A stretch of 58,138 nt of DNA, from positions 1 to 58,138 of the IMG/VR virus record IMGVR_UViG_3300042691_039422; one strand, given 5' to 3'. The DNA comes from a virus. A program made the translations under genes and the position numbers. Positions 3,052 to 46,535 of the stretch are shown in pieces. Each line of letters starts with the position of its first letter. Positions within the stretch are counted from its first letter, which is position 1. The notes below the pieces were generated by a model. The model had not been told where the DNA came from, searched no databases, and saw only the letters and a program-made list of their open reading frames with translations.

Positions 3052-5003
3052 GTCTCACCCCGATCAAAGCCATCCCCCTCGACTGTCCGCTGCACCCCCT
3101 GCCGCTCGACTATCACGACCTCACGCAGGAGGGTCAGCGGCAGGCCCGGGTCAACGCCGCCCGGCAGTGGTCCCTGGAGGGCACGGCGGCCGAACGCGCT
3201 CGCCGCCTGATCAACTCGCTCAACTTCTTCGACCTGCACTACCTCGCGGACGACGTCGAGTCCCTGCACGAGCCGGGCTTCTACGACATGCCGCCGCTCC
3301 GGACGCCCGCCTACCACTGGGAGATCGCGTCCCACTGGGTCAACCCCCTCTCGATCACGCTGGCCCCCCGCGGCGGCGCCAAGTCCACCTTCATCCGCAA
3401 GGACGTCATCCTCCGGATGGTCTCGATGCCCCGCTACTCGGTCGCGTACGCCACCTCCACAAACGAGAACGCCCTCTATACGGGCCAGCTCGTCAAGGAC
3501 CAGTGCTACGAGAACGGCCGCATCCAGGCCGACTTCGCGCCCGAGTGGGACGCCTCGACCCTCAAGCCCAACCGGGGCGCGAAGTCCACCGGCGTCCAGA
3601 TGTTCTTCCTGAACAACGGCTCGTGGCTCCGGTGCGTCTCGGCCCGCTCCCGCCTCCGCGGTCTGCGTCCCCGCATCTTCAAGCTGGACGACCCCGAGTA
3701 CGACGAGTCCGGCTCGACCTCCATGGACGAGATCCGGGCCTACATGGAGCGACTGCTCTTCTCCATCGCCATGCCGATGACCCTGCGTGCGAACACCTTC
3801 CTGCACTGGGTCGGCACCTTCGTCTCCAAGCGGCACTACCTCTGGCAGGCCATGGACACGGTCAACACGCCCGAAGGCCCCCGAGCCGTCGACCCCCGCT
3901 TCGACCTCTGGTCCCGCCTCCACATCCGCGCCTCCTGGGTCGACGAGCAGACCGGCCGTCTCCGCTCCTGCTGGCCCGAGATGTGGCCCGCCGACGAGGA
4001 GGAGAAGGTCCGCCTCAAACTGCCCGAGTCTACCCGCACCATCACCCAGATCCAGAAAATGCTGGGCTCGGCCGTCTACAACAAGGAAATGCTGGGCCTC
4101 CCCGGCACCTCCGACCAGCTCCTCTTCAAGCTCGACGCCGACACGAAGGGCACGCACGCCTGGTGGCTCGAAGAGGCCGACGAGATCTTCAACGACCAGC
4201 CCCTTCTCTCCCGGGCGAAGATCTGCTTCCGGGACCACGACAAGCCCGACGTCGTCCACCGCCTCTCCGTCATGGACTTCCTGGCCCAGTCCAAGCTCTT
4301 CATGACCGTCGACAGCGCCTTCACGGAGACCGCGACCTCGGACCGCCGGGTCTCGCACCTCATGGCCCTGTACGCCAACAACATCCTCTTCTCGCTCGAC
4401 CTCTGGTCCGACCGGAAGACCGACGGGGAGCTGCTCAACGCCTCGCTCATCCAGGCCGACAAGTGGCGTTGCCCGATCATCTTCGTCGAGGTCGTCCGCG
4501 AGTCGATCAAGCTGTACATCCGCTACCGGTCGGCCGTGCAGACCCGCGTCACGACCAACCTCGGCCTGACGCACACGCCGCTCGTCAAAGACCTCCGGCC
4601 CGGCGCCATGACCAAGACCGCCAAGATCTCCACCATGGACACCCGGTTCGAGTTCGGCCTCGTGAAGCTGCCGCTCTGGCGTCGCGGCCGGCACGGTCCC
4701 TACACCCGCCTCTTCGAGCAGATCGAGTCCTTCAACCCGAGCTCCAACGACGGCGGCCTGGCCAACGACGACGAGATCGACACGCTCTCCATGTCCAGCA
4801 TGGTCATCCGGGGCAAGCACGGCATCCGCCACACCCAGCTGGCCAAGTCCGAGGCCGTGGACGCCCTCGCCCTCCTCCGGCAGGGCAAGCGGCATATCCC
4901 CGGGACCTCCATCCCGCTCGTCAGCGCTTTGCCGCACGACATGATCACGACCGACCTGCTCGGTCCCTTCCCCGACGCCCCCGACCAGGAGTCCGTCATT
5001 TGA
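3048..5003 (+). CDS. terL: Terminase large subunit
   Basis: 651 residues from a TTG start overlapping the previous stop as TTGA. The ATPase domain has a phage-type Walker A, LAPRGGAKST (about 105-114), and a Walker B, IFKLDDPE (about 210-217). The nuclease domain has the first acidic residue in TVDSAFTE (about 420-427), and a downstream EAVDALALL supplies a likely later acidic residue. The enzyme pumps DNA into the prohead and cuts it at packaging start and end. In-frame ATG codons are far downstream and would remove essential sequence, so TTG is preferred. AAGG lies seven bases upstream. The following gene uses the same TTGA arrangement. Confidence 0.9.
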   Translation: MSLTPIKAIPLDCPLHPLPLDYHDLTQEGQRQARVNAARQWSLEGTAAERARRLINSLNFFDLHYLADDVESLHEPGFYDMPPLRTPAYHWEIASHWVNPLSITLAPRGGAKSTFIRKDVILRMVSMPRYSVAYATSTNENALYTGQLVKDQCYENGRIQADFAPEWDASTLKPNRGAKSTGVQMFFLNNGSWLRCVSARSRLRGLRPRIFKLDDPEYDESGSTSMDEIRAYMERLLFSIAMPMTLRANTFLHWVGTFVSKRHYLWQAMDTVNTPEGPRAVDPRFDLWSRLHIRASWVDEQTGRLRSCWPEMWPADEEEKVRLKLPESTRTITQIQKMLGSAVYNKEMLGLPGTSDQLLFKLDADTKGTHAWWLEEADEIFNDQPLLSRAKICFRDHDKPDVVHRLSVMDFLAQSKLFMTVDSAFTETATSDRRVSHLMALYANNILFSLDLWSDRKTDGELLNASLIQADKWRCPIIFVEVVRESIKLYIRYRSAVQTRVTTNLGLTHTPLVKDLRPGAMTKTAKISTMDTRFEFGLVKLPLWRRGRHGPYTRLFEQIESFNPSSNDGGLANDDEIDTLSMSSMVIRGKHGIRHTQLAKSEAVDALALLRQGKRHIPGTSIPLVSALPHDMITTDLLGPFPDAPDQESVI

Positions 5004-5287
5004 GCACCGAAGTCCCGTCCAACTTCCTCGCCGGTTCCCACGTCGTCGTACCCCTCACGTTCTTCAAGGAGCTGCTGGCCTGCTACTACGGCACCGGCCC
5101 CCGCTTCGGCGAGTCCCGCACTCCCACCCCTCCCGTCACGCCCGCTCCAAGCCCGGTTGTTGAGATGGGAGGGGTGTCCCCTACAGTCCCCGTGCCTGTG
5201 AGCTCCATGCGGTTGACGCCGATGGGGGCTGCACGACCGAAGGAACCCGTCCATGAGCCACGCATTAAGCAAGCTGCCGAAAAGTGA
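5000..5287 (+). CDS. Small protein between terminase and portal
   Basis: 95 residues from TTG 5000, which overlaps the terminase stop as TTGA and has AGGAG eight bases upstream. The N-terminal third is hydrophobic and aromatic (VVVPLTFFKELLACYYG), and the rest is Pro/Val-rich and probably flexible. It carries two motif copies: 5125-5134 gives TPPV and 5167-5176 gives MGGV. The 3' end overlaps the portal start by 35 bases. No family recognised. Its position suggests a packaging or portal accessory protein. Confidence 0.55.
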   Translation: MSTEVPSNFLAGSHVVVPLTFFKELLACYYGTGPRFGESRTPTPPVTPAPSPVVEMGGVSPTVPVPVSSMRLTPMGAARPKEPVHEPRIKQAAEK

Positions 5288-10413: not shown

Positions 10414-11336
10414 TGGACTCCAACTTCTCCTACCTCCAGGCCGACGTCGAACACATCCGCACGATGCTCGACGCGTCTCGGATCGACGGGGGCAAGTACA
10501 CCGACTCGTACATCTGCTCCTACTCGCTCACGCACTCGATGCGGAACGTCCTCTCCCGCCTCTCAAACAACAGCGGGTGCCGCATCCTCCAGAAGTTCCG
10601 CATCACGCCCGTGGCGGGTCAGACCCGGTACAAGCTGCCGCCGTGCATCGAGGGCGTCATCCGCCTTCAGTTCACGGACACGCTCGGCAACGTCGTGGGC
10701 GAGATCCAACCCTTCTCCCCGTGGAGCGCGAACGGCCAGGGCTGGCGACTCGAAGGCACGCCGGGCTTCCTGAGCATCGTCTTCGACGCGACGCCCGACC
10801 CCTCCCAGTTCCTCGACATCGTCTACATCTCCAACGGCGACTGGTATCCCCACTACGGCGAGGGCGACCTCGAAGCCCCCAAGACGGGCAACCTCCAGGT
10901 CATGTCGCTGGCGACCGCGCCCATCCTGGGGACCGTCGACCGCCGGGAGTCCGCCTACCTGGGCTCGCACGTGCGGATCATCCCGAGCAGCAACGCACCC
11001 GTGCAGGAGCGTCAGATCCTCCGGCACTGGCACGACGGCACCGACTGGAAGATCGAGTTCGAGGCCACCAACCCCGAGCTCATTGACAAGCACAACTACG
11101 AGATCGTCGTGCCCGGCTTCGGCGCCTTGCACCACGCCGTCGCGATGCTCACCGCCTTCGAGTTGTCGGTCGCCCTCTCGGCCACCCAGTCGAAGCAGGG
11201 CGGCATCCTCACCCTGTACAAGACCGCGATGAAGACGGCCCTCGACAACGTCACCTCGATCAATCGAGCGCTCGGCTTCTACATGGAACGCAACGTGCCG
11301 GGCTCCGCCGTGAACATGACCTTCGGGAAGAACTGA
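10413..11336 (+). CDS. Head-tail adaptor / tail tubular protein A-like
   Basis: 307 residues, located directly after the head genes, as is the podovirus gatekeeper (T7 gp11-like tail tubular protein A). The protein starts with a helical segment and has a beta-rich centre (FRITPVAGQTRYKLPPCIEG). It ends with a helix-rich region of the type seen in adaptor rings (AVAMLTAFELSVALSATQSK). The family assignment is by position and general layout, not by a diagnostic motif. The start overlaps the upstream stop and the stop overlaps the next ATG. Confidence 0.55.
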   Translation: MDSNFSYLQADVEHIRTMLDASRIDGGKYTDSYICSYSLTHSMRNVLSRLSNNSGCRILQKFRITPVAGQTRYKLPPCIEGVIRLQFTDTLGNVVGEIQPFSPWSANGQGWRLEGTPGFLSIVFDATPDPSQFLDIVYISNGDWYPHYGEGDLEAPKTGNLQVMSLATAPILGTVDRRESAYLGSHVRIIPSSNAPVQERQILRHWHDGTDWKIEFEATNPELIDKHNYEIVVPGFGALHHAVAMLTAFELSVALSATQSKQGGILTLYKTAMKTALDNVTSINRALGFYMERNVPGSAVNMTFGKN

Positions 11337-12631
11337 TGCCCTCCACGAACCCCATCCAGTCGGATCTTGGCGGCGACGCGATGAACCAGTGGGCCTCCAC
11401 GTTCAGGCCCCGGTTCTCCACGTCCGTCATGACCCGGCTCGCGACGGGGTTCGGCCAGCAGAAGATCCGGGACCCCCTCCCATTCCCGCTGCCACGCGCC
11501 CGCACCTCCCAGCAGCCCACCCTCCGCCGTCCGTTCGACCAGGGCGTCCTCACCCCCGTCCTGCTGCCTGCCTCTTCGGCCATCATCGTCGCGGAGACGC
11601 CCAACGAAACGCCCGGCCTCGACACGACGCCCGGCGACCAGTCCACGCCGGGTGATGAATCCACTCCGGGCGATGAGTCCACACCCGGCGACGAGTCGAC
11701 CGACGGTGAAGACACCACGCCAGGCGACGGCACCACCGAAGGTCCCGGCGAAGAGAGTACACCTGGTGAGGGCACGACCCCCGGTGACGAATCCACGGGC
11801 GGTCCCGGCGAAGAATCCACTCCGGGCGATGGTCCCGACACCGATGGTGTCGCGACGTCCGGCGGCGGCGATACACCTGGCGGCTTCACGACCGGTCCGG
11901 ACGGGACCGCTGTCATCGGCGGCGGTGGTGGTGGTCAGCCTCCGTGGGGCGGCACTGACGGTCCGGGCCAAACCGGCTCCTCCTCGTCGAGCAGCTCCTC
12001 GTCCAGCTCCGAAGACCAATGTGCCGGGTGCGGTGCGGGCTTCACCGTCAACCTCAGCGCCGGCCCCTCCTACGTCCGCAACTCCGCCAACCCGACTGAG
12101 TTCGTCGACTGCACCGCCTTCAACCCCATCGAAAGTCCGAGCGCGTGCGGCAGCTTCGTCACTGCGGCGTTGGACGACGCCTGGTTCCAGTACGACCAGT
12201 TCGTGTCTGCCGGGATCGCGGGCAATCCCCCTCCCTTCCCCCGCTCCTCCGAGCTGGGCGCCTACTGCGGTTGCGTCGTCAAGCAGCAGGTCCCGGGCAT
12301 GCACCGCGTCCCCGGTAGCAACTGTCTGTGGGCCGAGACCATCGTCACGGAGGTTTGCTTCGAGAACGCCCGAGTGACGCCTCTGCACCTGGATTGGTAC
12401 GTCGCGTACGGCTTCGCCTATGGGAGCGCGGTCCTCGAAGCCGCGTTCATCAACCCGGACGACCCGACGAAGTTTGAGACCTTCAACCCCAGCACGTTCC
12501 TGCTCATTCAGCCGGGCGAGGGCACGTGCTGCGACCCTACAAACAACAGCACGACGCCGGTGGATTGCGCCGACTACCGTTTCTTCAACACGTTCACCGT
12601 CAACGGCCCCGTCTGCATCAGATACCGATGA
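11336..12631 (+). CDS. Low-complexity TPGDES-repeat protein with Cys-rich C-terminal domain
   Basis: 431 residues. Residues about 90-175 are a hydrophilic low-complexity region built from TPGDES-like units. Next come a Gly-rich stretch, a tract of about a dozen serines, and then a C-terminal domain (about 225-431) with many cysteines (CAGCG, YCGC, TCC). Acidic Thr/Pro/Gly/Ser repeats make extended flexible linkers, as in virion decoration or fibre proteins. The cysteine-rich domain may bind metal or form disulphides on the virion surface. No family recognised. It sits between the adaptor and glycosyltransferase genes, so its Thr/Ser-rich repeats could be glycosylated (inference). Confidence 0.6.
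   Translation: MPSTNPIQSDLGGDAMNQWASTFRPRFSTSVMTRLATGFGQQKIRDPLPFPLPRARTSQQPTLRRPFDQGVLTPVLLPASSAIIVAETPNETPGLDTTPGDQSTPGDESTPGDESTPGDESTDGEDTTPGDGTTEGPGEESTPGEGTTPGDESTGGPGEESTPGDGPDTDGVATSGGGDTPGGFTTGPDGTAVIGGGGGGQPPWGGTDGPGQTGSSSSSSSSSSSEDQCAGCGAGFTVNLSAGPSYVRNSANPTEFVDCTAFNPIESPSACGSFVTAALDDAWFQYDQFVSAGIAGNPPPFPRSSELGAYCGCVVKQQVPGMHRVPGSNCLWAETIVTEVCFENARVTPLHLDWYVAYGFAYGSAVLEAAFINPDDPTKFETFNPSTFLLIQPGEGTCCDPTNNSTTPVDCADYRFFNTFTVNGPVCIRYR
11614..11840 (+). repeat. Tandem imperfect repeats encoding TPGDES units
   Basis: Imperfect units of about 18 bases (ACGCCGGGTGATGAATCC-like) are repeated consecutively near 11640-11700 and in degenerate form to about 11840. Copy-number variation by slippage is likely. 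They encode the acidic flexible linker of the surrounding gene. Confidence 0.75.
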
Positions 12632-33385: not shown

Positions 33386-34648
33386 TCAGCGAGCGAGCCA
33401 CGCGGGCTTGACGGCGGCGTAGGCGGGGGCGTGCGGGGTGCCGCTGTAGTTGATCTTCTGGATCTGCGAGTAGATGAGGTTGGCCCAGTTGGTCCGGAGC
33501 GTGGCGTTGGCGGTCGCGGGGTGGATGAGGTCGGAGAGTTGGGTCGTGCGCCACGCGGACCAGGGGCCGAAATTATCGCGCTGCCAACCGCAGAAGTCAA
33601 CCACTTCGACGGCGGAATCTGTGTAGCCGATGTCCCAGCAGGCCTGACGCGCGGTGTCCCAGGACGTCTGGTCGTCGGAGAGGGCGTCGTACTGGGTGAC
33701 GAGGAGGAAGAAGGGGGCGGGGATGCCGGCAAGGGCGGCACAACGACGGATGCGAGCGATGACACGCTGGACGCGGTTCTTGAGGCCGGGGAAGTCAGTC
33801 TCGTTGGCGCCGGGGCTCAGGATGATGAGGTTGTAGCGGTAGGCGGCGAGTTCGGCGATGAGGGCCGCGTCGGAGTAGGAGGGGTCGTAGGCAGGGGCGT
33901 CGGCGGTGATGGTGACGCCGGGGGTGGCGGAGGTGTGGGGTTCGAGGCCCCACGAGCCGTGCCCGCCGTAACCGCCGAAGACGCCGACGGACTCGCCGAC
34001 CACTTCGAGGGCTCCGGACGCGACCCGGAAGGTGCCGGACTCGACCTGGTTGGAAGATTGGATGAAGGCGAGGAGGGCGTTGGAGCCCGTACCTGCCGAG
34101 TAGGCGGTGGAGGTCAGTTGGCGAATCAGGGAGGGCGTCGCGGTGATTGTGGAGCCGACCGTGAGGGAGTAGGTGTTGGAGGCGGGAGAGGTGCGGTTAG
34201 CGCCCTTGTGTTCCCAGTTGGCGTAGCCGGTGAGGGAAGGGTCGGATTCGAGGAGGAAGATGCTGCGGAAGGTGCGAGAACCGAGCCAGTCGGCGCCGGG
34301 GCCTGCGTCGTAGACGGCTGAGAGGGAGGCGGTAGGCGTAAAGCTGCTGCAATCGCCGGAGGCGAAGGTGGTCTGTTTCAGGTGGCACTTGCTGGTGTCT
34401 TCGCCCGGACGGCGGGACGTGAGGGTCATCCCGAGGCCGTTGAAGGAGCCGGTGACGGGGAGGCCGGTCGAGAAGACCATGCCTGCGGAGTTGCCGAGGA
34501 TGGGCGTGGGGGCCTGTTTGAAGAGGGCCTGCGTGACGTTGTAGTTGATCGAGGGAAGGTGGATGGAGTTGCCGAGGATCAGGAAGCGGAATTGGGCCGC
34601 GAGGAGGCGGGCTGCGTTACCGCGGATGATGTGCTTGGCAACGGCCAT
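33386..34648 (-). CDS. SGNH/GDSL-type hydrolase
   Basis: 420 residues, start 34648 with AAGGA upstream. RFLILGNSIH (about 21-30) replaces the GDS block of SGNH hydrolases with GNS. The block LIILSPGANETD (about 272-283) provides a Gly/Asn region. A later block with LIHPA (about 380-384) resembles the DxxH segment. These enzymes cleave esters or acetyl groups in carbohydrates, so host polysaccharide or cell-wall modification during adsorption or lysis is plausible. The holin-like and lipoprotein genes immediately upstream suggest a lysis unit. Some catalytic positions are uncertain. Confidence 0.55.
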   Translation of the reverse strand: MAVAKHIIRGNAARLLAAQFRFLILGNSIHLPSINYNVTQALFKQAPTPILGNSAGMVFSTGLPVTGSFNGLGMTLTSRRPGEDTSKCHLKQTTFASGDCSSFTPTASLSAVYDAGPGADWLGSRTFRSIFLLESDPSLTGYANWEHKGANRTSPASNTYSLTVGSTITATPSLIRQLTSTAYSAGTGSNALLAFIQSSNQVESGTFRVASGALEVVGESVGVFGGYGGHGSWGLEPHTSATPGVTITADAPAYDPSYSDAALIAELAAYRYNLIILSPGANETDFPGLKNRVQRVIARIRRCAALAGIPAPFFLLVTQYDALSDDQTSWDTARQACWDIGYTDSAVEVVDFCGWQRDNFGPWSAWRTTQLSDLIHPATANATLRTNWANLIYSQIQKINYSGTPHAPAYAAVKPAWLAR

Positions 34649-45369: not shown

Positions 45370-45897
45370 TCAGGGCGGTGTCCCGGACGAGGAGGGCGGA
45401 GGCGAGGACGATGAGGGCGGAAAGAAGGAGGGCAGTGGTGGCCATGAGAGGTCCGCGGTGTTGGGGACGAACCACTCGCCCCGGGATGTGGTCTGGATCG
45501 GGTTCTCGTCGATGAGGTCCTCGACGTTGGCGTACCAGAGACCGGGACCGGGGACGATGTGGGGGCAGTGGATGGCGCCGTAGAGGCGGGAGGCCAGCGT
45601 CGTGCAGTCGTCGGCCCACTGATCCCGTTCCTCCTCCGTTGTCGCGAGGTCGGATTCGAGGGAGCGGATGCGCTCGTGGAGGGTGTTGTAGAGGGACTCG
45701 ACCTCGGAGACGTAGTCGTTGAAGTCGTCCTCGGAGATGTAGACCTCTTGGAAGCGAGCGCGCCAGCTGGAGTTGTTCTCCTTGGTGTATTGGGTTTCGG
45801 AGGGGCGGGTGTTGCAATCGTTGCAGACACCGGCTTCCTCGAAGGCGACCTTGTCCAGGTTGGAGGAGGGCAGGGATGGGATGGGTTCGTGAGGCAT
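45370..45897 (-). CDS. Hypothetical protein with CxxC and coiled-coil
   Basis: 175 residues from ATG 45897. The N-terminal part holds VCNDCN, suggestive of a zinc finger as in HNH-like fragments. A charged helix (SEVESLYNTLHERIRSLESD) follows as a likely coiled coil. A Pro/Ser-rich tail overlaps a hydrophobic frame beginning at 45445. The start follows two GC-rich hairpins. No family confirmed. Confidence 0.55.
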   Translation of the reverse strand: MPHEPIPSLPSSNLDKVAFEEAGVCNDCNTRPSETQYTKENNSSWRARFQEVYISEDDFNDYVSEVESLYNTLHERIRSLESDLATTEEERDQWADDCTTLASRLYGAIHCPHIVPGPGLWYANVEDLIDENPIQTTSRGEWFVPNTADLSWPPLPSFFPPSSSSPPPSSSGTPP

Positions 45898-46009
45898 AAA
45901 TCCCCACTGCCCGGGGGAGGCGAGTGGGGTGAGACCCCGGCAACACACCGGGGCTCGGTGGAGGAAGAAGAGGTTACTTGTTGGGCATGGGAAGATCTCC
46001 TGGGGGAAA
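45898..46009 (-). promoter_or_regulatory. Structured leader with four-codon ORF
   Basis: Downstream (minus strand) of the tRNA-like element is AGGAG, nine bases, then ATG CCC AAC AAG TAA (45974-45988), a complete MPNK mini-ORF. It is followed by the hairpin GAGCCCCGG...CCGGGGTCTC and a second stem CCCCACT...AGTGGGG abutting the next start. The arrangement resembles an attenuator or translational leader but could be coincidental. Confidence 0.3.
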
Positions 46010-46140
46010 TGCAGCGGGCCGGAGTCGAACCGGCTGTGGCCATCGGCAACGTGCGAGAATCGAACTCGCCAAAGGCCTGCTTTTGACACCCGGCCTTACC
46101 CATTCGTTGCCTAGCGTGTCACCGTCCACGCCGCCGCTGC
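46010..46140 (-). ncRNA. Nested tRNA-like element
   Basis: Two T-arm-like hairpins with perfect five-base stems and canonical loops (GCGAG-TTCGATT-CTCGC and GCCGG-TTCGACT-CCGGC) lie in tandem on the minus strand. An outer acceptor stem GCAGCGG/CCGCTGC encloses a D-arm-like hairpin and a 67-base inner unit closed by GGCAACG/CGTTGCC. The inner unit lacks a normal D-arm and has a long hairpin with loop GTCAAAA instead of a canonical anticodon arm. The whole looks like a cloverleaf whose anticodon arm was replaced by a second tRNA-like fold. No coding gene overlaps it. Confidence 0.5.
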
Positions 46141-46148
46141 GGTGAGGC

Positions 46149-46535
46149 TTAGGGGGTGTGGGTGCCTTCGACGCCTCGGCCTTGGCGAGTGATGGTGCGG
46201 GAGCGGAGAGCCGCTTGGGCGCTGCGGATATGAGTGAGGGCCTGGTCGTTCTCGGGGCAGGCGAAGGGGCCTTGTTGGAAATTCCGGAGGCGGTCTTCGA
46301 GGATGGCGAGGAGGACTTCGTTGGTGAGGCCGTTGACGCCGTCGGCGATGGGGCCGTCTTGGAACTTGAGGTTGACGCCGAAGGAGGGGACGGAGCCGAC
46401 GCCGGGAACGTCGTGGCGGGGGCCGGAGATGTCGTAGCGGACGGGGGCCCCGCCCGTGCTGGGGCGGTGGGCAGTGAGTTCGATCTGACGGTTGCAGTCG
46501 TTGGTGTGGTGGGTTGTGATCTTGCGTTCGTTCAA
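46149..46535 (-). CDS. Acb2/Tad1 hairpin-domain-type protein (candidate anti-defence)
   Basis: 128 residues from TTG 46535, supported by AGGAG eight bases upstream. The C-terminal half has the pattern seen in phage proteins annotated as Acb2/Tad1 hairpin domain: NGLTNEVLLAILEDRL, FQQGPFACPEN, AALRSRTITRQ and a terminal RGVEGT. Acb2 and Tad1 proteins sequester cyclic nucleotide or cyclic ADP-ribose signals of CBASS and Thoeris defence. This assignment is from remembered family pattern and needs a profile search. The N-terminal half is beta-leaning (VNLKFQDGPIADG). Confidence 0.6.
   Translation of the reverse strand: MNERKITTHHTNDCNRQIELTAHRPSTGGAPVRYDISGPRHDVPGVGSVPSFGVNLKFQDGPIADGVNGLTNEVLLAILEDRLRNFQQGPFACPENDQALTHIRSAQAALRSRTITRQGRGVEGTHTP

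Follow-up and report, generated by a model that had tools for sequence, protein, structure and literature searches.

A nested pair of tRNA-like units without a decoding arm in a virus contig

Some tRNA genes contain introns, which belong to group I in bacteria and phages and are spliced by proteins in archaea and eukaryotes (PMC4090602, PMC3984707). In the open-access literature covered by our search, we found no account of a tRNA nested within another tRNA. Mitochondrial tRNA-Ser is a tRNA that lacks the D-arm.

Here, we describe a nested tRNA-like element of 130 nt on the minus strand (46140 to 46011) of a 58-kb virus contig, the whole 58,138-nt stretch of which is hereafter called the window. 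Its outer unit comprises an acceptor, a D-like and a T arm, and the place of its anticodon arm is occupied by an inner unit without a D-arm. The two nested units are tRNA-derived and non-random, and the decoding arm is absent.

Anatomy and surroundings of the element

An initial annotation, which gave no strand, had described two perfect T-arms with canonical loops, a perfect 7-base outer acceptor stem enclosing a D-arm-like hairpin, and a second 7-base acceptor stem around a D-armless unit. All of these parts are present in the sequence when it is read on the minus strand: the T-arms at 46069-46053 and 46034-46018, the outer acceptor stem at 46140-46134 / 46017-46011 (7/7 Watson-Crick pairs), the hairpin inside it at 46131-46114, and the second acceptor stem at 46111-46105 / 46051-46045 (7/7 Watson-Crick pairs). 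A plus-strand reading was rejected, as the T-arm consensus occurs on the minus strand only. The features of the region are as follows:

46149-46535, minus strand: upstream ORF, 128 aa; no Pfam match, stop codon 8 nt before the element
46011-46140, minus strand: whole nested tRNA-like element (T-arm count, stem simulation, linker comparison)
46134-46140, minus strand: outer acceptor stem, 5' strand GCAGCGG, pairing with 46011-46017
46114-46131, minus strand: D-arm-like hairpin GCGTG-GACGGTGA-CACGC; loop with GG, without U8/A14
46105-46111, minus strand: inner acceptor stem, 5' strand GGCAACG, pairing with 46045-46051
46072-46097, minus strand: inner hairpin AAGGCC / GGCCTT with 14-nt loop GGGTGTCAAAAGCA, in the anticodon-arm position; present in the minimum free energy (MFE) fold of the inner unit alone
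46053-46069, minus strand: T-arm 1 (inner), GCGAG-TTCGATT-CTCGC (T-arm scan, simulation)
46045-46051, minus strand: inner acceptor stem, 3' strand CGTTGCC; G46044 in the discriminator position
46035-46044, minus strand: 10-nt linker GATGGCCACA, compared with 15-22 nt in true nested tRNAs
46018-46034, minus strand: T-arm 2 (outer), GCCGG-TTCGACT-CCGGC (T-arm scan, simulation)
46011-46017, minus strand: outer acceptor stem, 3' strand CCGCTGC; A46010 in the discriminator position, CCA not encoded
45974-45988, minus strand: 4-codon frame ATG CCC AAC AAG TAA (MPNK), just 3' of the element
45370-45897, minus strand: downstream ORF, 175 aa (ORF list)

From 46140 to 46011, the minus strand reads GCAGCGG CG GCGTG GACGGTGA CACGC TA, then the inner unit, then GATGGCCACA GCCGG TTCGACT CCGGC CCGCTGC. 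The inner unit reads, 5' to 3', GGCAACG AATGGGT AAGGCC GGGTGTCAAAAGCA GGCCTT TG GCGAG TTCGATT CTCGC A CGTTGCC, and its length as an insert is 67 nt. All 35 of the base pairs drawn are Watson-Crick pairs and both T-loops are perfect; since every named pair is intact, this suggests either constraint on the element or its youth.

Two details of the inner unit correct the initial annotation: A46052 is unpaired between T-stem 1 and the inner acceptor stem, which is unusual for a tRNA, and there is a 6-bp inner hairpin with its 14-nt loop. The statement that no normal anticodon arm can be drawn holds, given the size of this loop and the absence of an outer stem. Drawing a 4-bp outer anticodon stem (GCTA/TGGC) requires the D-hairpin to be cut to 3 bp, and this option was set aside as weak. 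Judged by its length, linker GATGGCCACA is too short to fit an outer anticodon strand plus a variable loop. The outer unit, as read from the sequence, has C at position 8 and no A14, so it lacks the U8-A14 pair of canonical tRNAs. No CCA is encoded in the element, and the tRNA-Met of the same phage likewise has none.

The record has 66% GC and few recognisable proteins, among them a Dda-like helicase, a DNA polymerase-like protein, a Sak4-like protein, a PD-(D/E)XK nuclease and a UDG. The element sits in a 251-nt gap between the two minus-strand ORFs. A strong Shine-Dalgarno-like sequence (AGGAGATC, 45994-46001, minus strand) precedes the MPNK frame, and together (45974-46001, minus strand) they might specify a leader peptide. 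Scans for promoters and terminators found none. Elsewhere in the window, ARAGORN called a tRNA-Thr at 33882-33959, on the strand opposite the ORF at 33386-34648 and with no Rfam support; this call is probably a false positive.

A DNA search of phages gave no match to the element, and no relatives of the flanking 128-aa protein were found. The helicase search returned only relatives of 36-43%, which share no other genes in the loci compared. A 431-aa protein (11336-12631) is 100% identical in three other metagenome viral contigs (L218-L220), none of which covers the element.

Chance, folding and single-gene models

Defining a perfect T-arm as five Watson-Crick pairs plus GTTCRANYC, we found three in the window (at 46065, 46030, and 36749 in tRNA-Met). 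Shuffled windows contained a mean of 0.09 each, and a close pair of T-arms occurred in 0/200 shuffles. To estimate the stems, we held the T-arms and 3' strands fixed and simulated the upstream sequence 150,000 times. The inner stem arose by chance in 1451/150,000 simulations (~1%) and the outer in 2067/150,000 (~1.4%), while both were nested in only 4/150,000 (~3 in 100,000), and nested stems together with a D-like hairpin never appeared (0/150,000).

The nested fold of the 130-nt element has an energy of -57.9 kcal/mol, compared with -58.0 for the MFE structure, and each unit folded alone has the drawn shape as its MFE. The folding z-score is -1.56 for the whole 130 nt (not unusual for its composition), -2.76 for the inner unit alone and -1.65 for the outer. 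In the full-length ensemble, pair probabilities of the inner stem and both T-arms are 0.11-0.15, and alternative folds compete. The energy of the whole element is unremarkable, and the case therefore stands on tRNA-specific motifs rather than on stability. A GC-rich sequence folds easily, and the modest whole-element z-score would fit a chance resemblance to tRNA parts, yet the shuffles and the rarity of nested stems make this explanation extremely improbable.

Dedicated scans bear out the initial view that this is not a standard single tRNA. At the element, ARAGORN reported neither a tRNA nor a tmRNA, Rfam reported neither at the gathering threshold, and the best permissive Rfam match was tRNA-Sec (25.4 bits vs a cut-off of 47); a single canonical tRNA was thus rejected. 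Both units have a T-arm with a TTCGAnT loop and a 7-bp acceptor stem. Neither has a 5-bp anticodon stem with a 7-nt loop and U33, and the inner unit has no D-arm. A tmRNA was also rejected, with no tag frame or pseudoknots identified in addition to the missing ARAGORN and Rfam matches, as was a group I intron within a tRNA (no Rfam match at gathering; insert of just 67 nt).

Phage attP sites often contain a T-arm plus 3' acceptor sequence, and the element could in principle be an integrase attachment site carrying the 3' ends of host tRNA genes. Such a site predicts no pair of nested 5' acceptor strands with a D-like hairpin, however, and no tyrosine integrase was matched in the record, leaving this origin very unlikely.

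A recurrent phage RNA was found with a T-arm, the invariant linker TCGYTGRCCGAGATYNGGTGAA and a second T-arm (74 stretches among the matches listed, e.g. L023:1518-1652, L121:4825-4959 on the minus strand, and L230:1880-2014). It often has a 3' hairpin, GCCGG-GAAAGA-CCGGC, and Rfam gave no match to it in the contigs tested (L006, L023, L051, L066, L094, L107, L121). The window has a similar T-arm spacing, and its linker ACGTTGCCGATGGCCACA has CGYTG-CCGA in common with this family. In a comparison by eye, however, it departs from the invariant linker TCG-T--CCGAG----GGT-A at T18, G29 and GGT-A, and the sequence 3' of T-arm 2 differs. We rejected the assignment, and membership of this family seems highly doubtful. 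The initial suggestion of a novel phage ncRNA is compatible with the element, but not through this RNA, given the mismatches at invariant positions.

Nested tRNA genes in other viral contigs

For comparison, viral contigs were scanned for two close T-loops; all figures from this set hold among the matches listed and are not frequencies. Both acceptor stems were nested with seven pairs in 8/451 double-T-arm candidates among these matches, compared with a mean of 0.25 after shuffling. The eight comprise the window (14/14 Watson-Crick pairs), L016, L063, L042, L212, L008 and two others that are probably chance hits.

We then removed the inner unit in silico. A canonical outer tRNA with its junction in the anticodon loop resulted for 17/327 candidates among the matches listed, compared with 0-8 (mean about 2.6 per 327) in each of 20 shuffled sets. 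Exact excision from G1 to CCA gives tRNA-Glu UUC in L008:3330-3481 (junction 36/37), tRNA-Gln UUG in L063:1358-1515 (junction 34/35) and tRNA-Lys UUU in L450:6109-6261 (junction 36/37). In L212:361-514 (minus strand) and L042:4971-5124, the excised segment must be longer or shorter by one or a few bases, giving tRNA-Arg UCG and tRNA-Arg CCU respectively, and in L016 (near 5000-5150) excision leaves a 10-nt loop. Inner units were called as tRNAs in L450, L042 and L016 and were not called in L008, L063 and L212. ARAGORN reported 0 outer tRNAs on the unspliced nested genes tested. The 5' half of the outer unit in L008 has 90% identity to the annotated tRNA-Glu of Enterococcus phages; among the isolate phages searched, none was found to carry the nested form.

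The window has the nested acceptors and two T-arms of this class but, having lost the outer anticodon stem, yields no tRNA when its inner unit is excised exactly. The linkers measure 22 nt (5') and 10 nt (3'), compared with 25-29 and 15-22 nt in the true tRNA-in-tRNA genes, so that each side is short by roughly one strand of an anticodon stem. The position expected for the outer anticodon stem is taken by the inner acceptor stem. Of the possibilities raised initially, a tRNA inserted at the anticodon of another fits the anatomy best and has parallels in L008, L063, L450, L212 and L042; what fails is the restoration of a tRNA by excision.

These parallels, each yielding a tRNA on excision, also bear on whether the window contains a functional nested tRNA, from which tRNA-end nucleases would remove the inner unit, and a working tRNA would be made by ligating what is left of the outer one. 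The 17 include the window, with three excision variants for which ARAGORN makes weak outer calls (Val AAC, Ile AAT). However, these calls depend on a stem with a mismatch and have no U33, the controls give 0-8 such candidates per 327, and three variants is no more than the control level, compared with 24-41 successful variants in the clear nested cases. Neither RtcB nor the PF09414 RNA ligase was matched in the window record, and RNA ligase is not enriched with nesting (3/9 nested-tRNA records vs 6/20); an RNA ligase partner was rejected on both grounds. Combined with the failure of exact excision, this makes a working spliced tRNA most improbable for the window. As a lead, ligase-dependent splicing applies to the other nested genes and not to this element.

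A second scan searched viral and cellular contigs for two close D-arms. In three Patescibacteria contigs (L375, L396, L445), the two halves of one tRNA have another tRNA between them, with inverted repeats of ~9-12 nt on either side of it (e.g. CCCCGTTAAA...TTTAACGGGG). Separately, L447, L460, L468, L473, L474, L479 and L492 share a conserved viral arrangement, made up of a tRNA 5' half, a full tRNA-like unit whose D-loop is enlarged, and another T-arm; their outer acceptor strands have no obvious pairing.

Origin, function and comparison with known systems

We tentatively favour the explanation that the element is a pair of nested tRNAs no longer able to decode, which persists as a tRNA-like RNA and probably serves as a substrate for tRNA-end processing, a function that we infer. 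Its source would be two tRNA genes, with an insertion having placed one of them within the anticodon arm of its partner. The acceptor stem, D-like hairpin and T-arm of the outer unit would have been retained, while the anticodon stem and loop would have been replaced by the second unit, which has an acceptor stem and a T-arm of its own and no D-arm, and any role in translation would have been lost. Co-transcribed with the neighbouring minus-strand genes, the element would offer its acceptor/T-arm ends to RNase P and 3'-end nucleases and, because these recognise such ends, would be cut out of the polycistronic transcript or cut that transcript up. Another possible role is that of a decoy to which tRNA-handling enzymes bind. 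It is not certain that tRNA enzymes would recognise the element, since U8 and A14 are missing from the outer unit and one additional base separates T-stem from acceptor in the inner unit.

A strong rival, nearly as likely though itself less than an even bet, is a neutral relic, in which recombination in a phage tRNA cluster was followed by loss of decoding in both units, leaving a functionless, decaying remainder. Both units lack a usable anticodon arm, excision yields no tRNA, the outer unit lacks U8/A14, no sequence relatives were found, and the nested genes of other viruses look recombinational. Against this, 35 pairs and the T-loops are perfect while the anticodon and D arms are wholly gone, and decay acting uniformly should have affected both; such uneven decay could reflect a recent origin. 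Since the searches found no relative that covers the element and could be examined for covariation, the relic stays a strong rival, and the degenerate tRNA pair suggested initially may likewise apply.

A broader proposal, which we regard as rather unlikely, is that tRNA-in-tRNA is a recurring phage architecture in which the anticodon-loop unit acts as an intron excised by tRNA-end nucleases, the element described here being a derived form whose anticodon arm has given way to the inner unit, leaving a stable, non-decoding tRNA-like RNA. The halves left by nuclease excision would have 3'-OH and 5'-P ends, which an RNA ligase could join. Standard tRNA scanners would overlook such RNAs, if they are made, just as ARAGORN overlooks the outer tRNAs of the nested genes tested. 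If the proposal is true, nesting would provide a simple kind of intron for which no dedicated splicing endonuclease is needed, and would give anticodon-loop RNA ligation a testable natural role. The window case would show that non-decoding tRNA ends can be kept for transcript processing or as bait for tRNA enzymes.

Among known systems, the element most resembles the tRNA-in-tRNA genes (L008, L063, L450, L212, L042, L016), in which an inner acceptor/T-arm unit likewise lies between the outer D-arm and T-arm, and the acceptor stems of the window pair in the same nested register. In L008, L063, L450, L212 and L042, however, the outer anticodon stem is intact, whereas the window lacks it on both sides. 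Intron-containing tRNA genes also have their insert in the anticodon region, but the 67-nt insert of the window is itself tRNA-like and the outer anticodon stem is missing. As in tmRNA, acceptor, D-like and T elements are present and an insert replaces the anticodon arm, although here the insert carries a T-arm and there is no G3-U70 pair. Finally, the inner unit, with acceptor, anticodon-like and T arms and no D-arm, is similar to D-armless mitochondrial tRNA-Ser, but has a 14-nt rather than a 7-nt loop and is nested in another unit.
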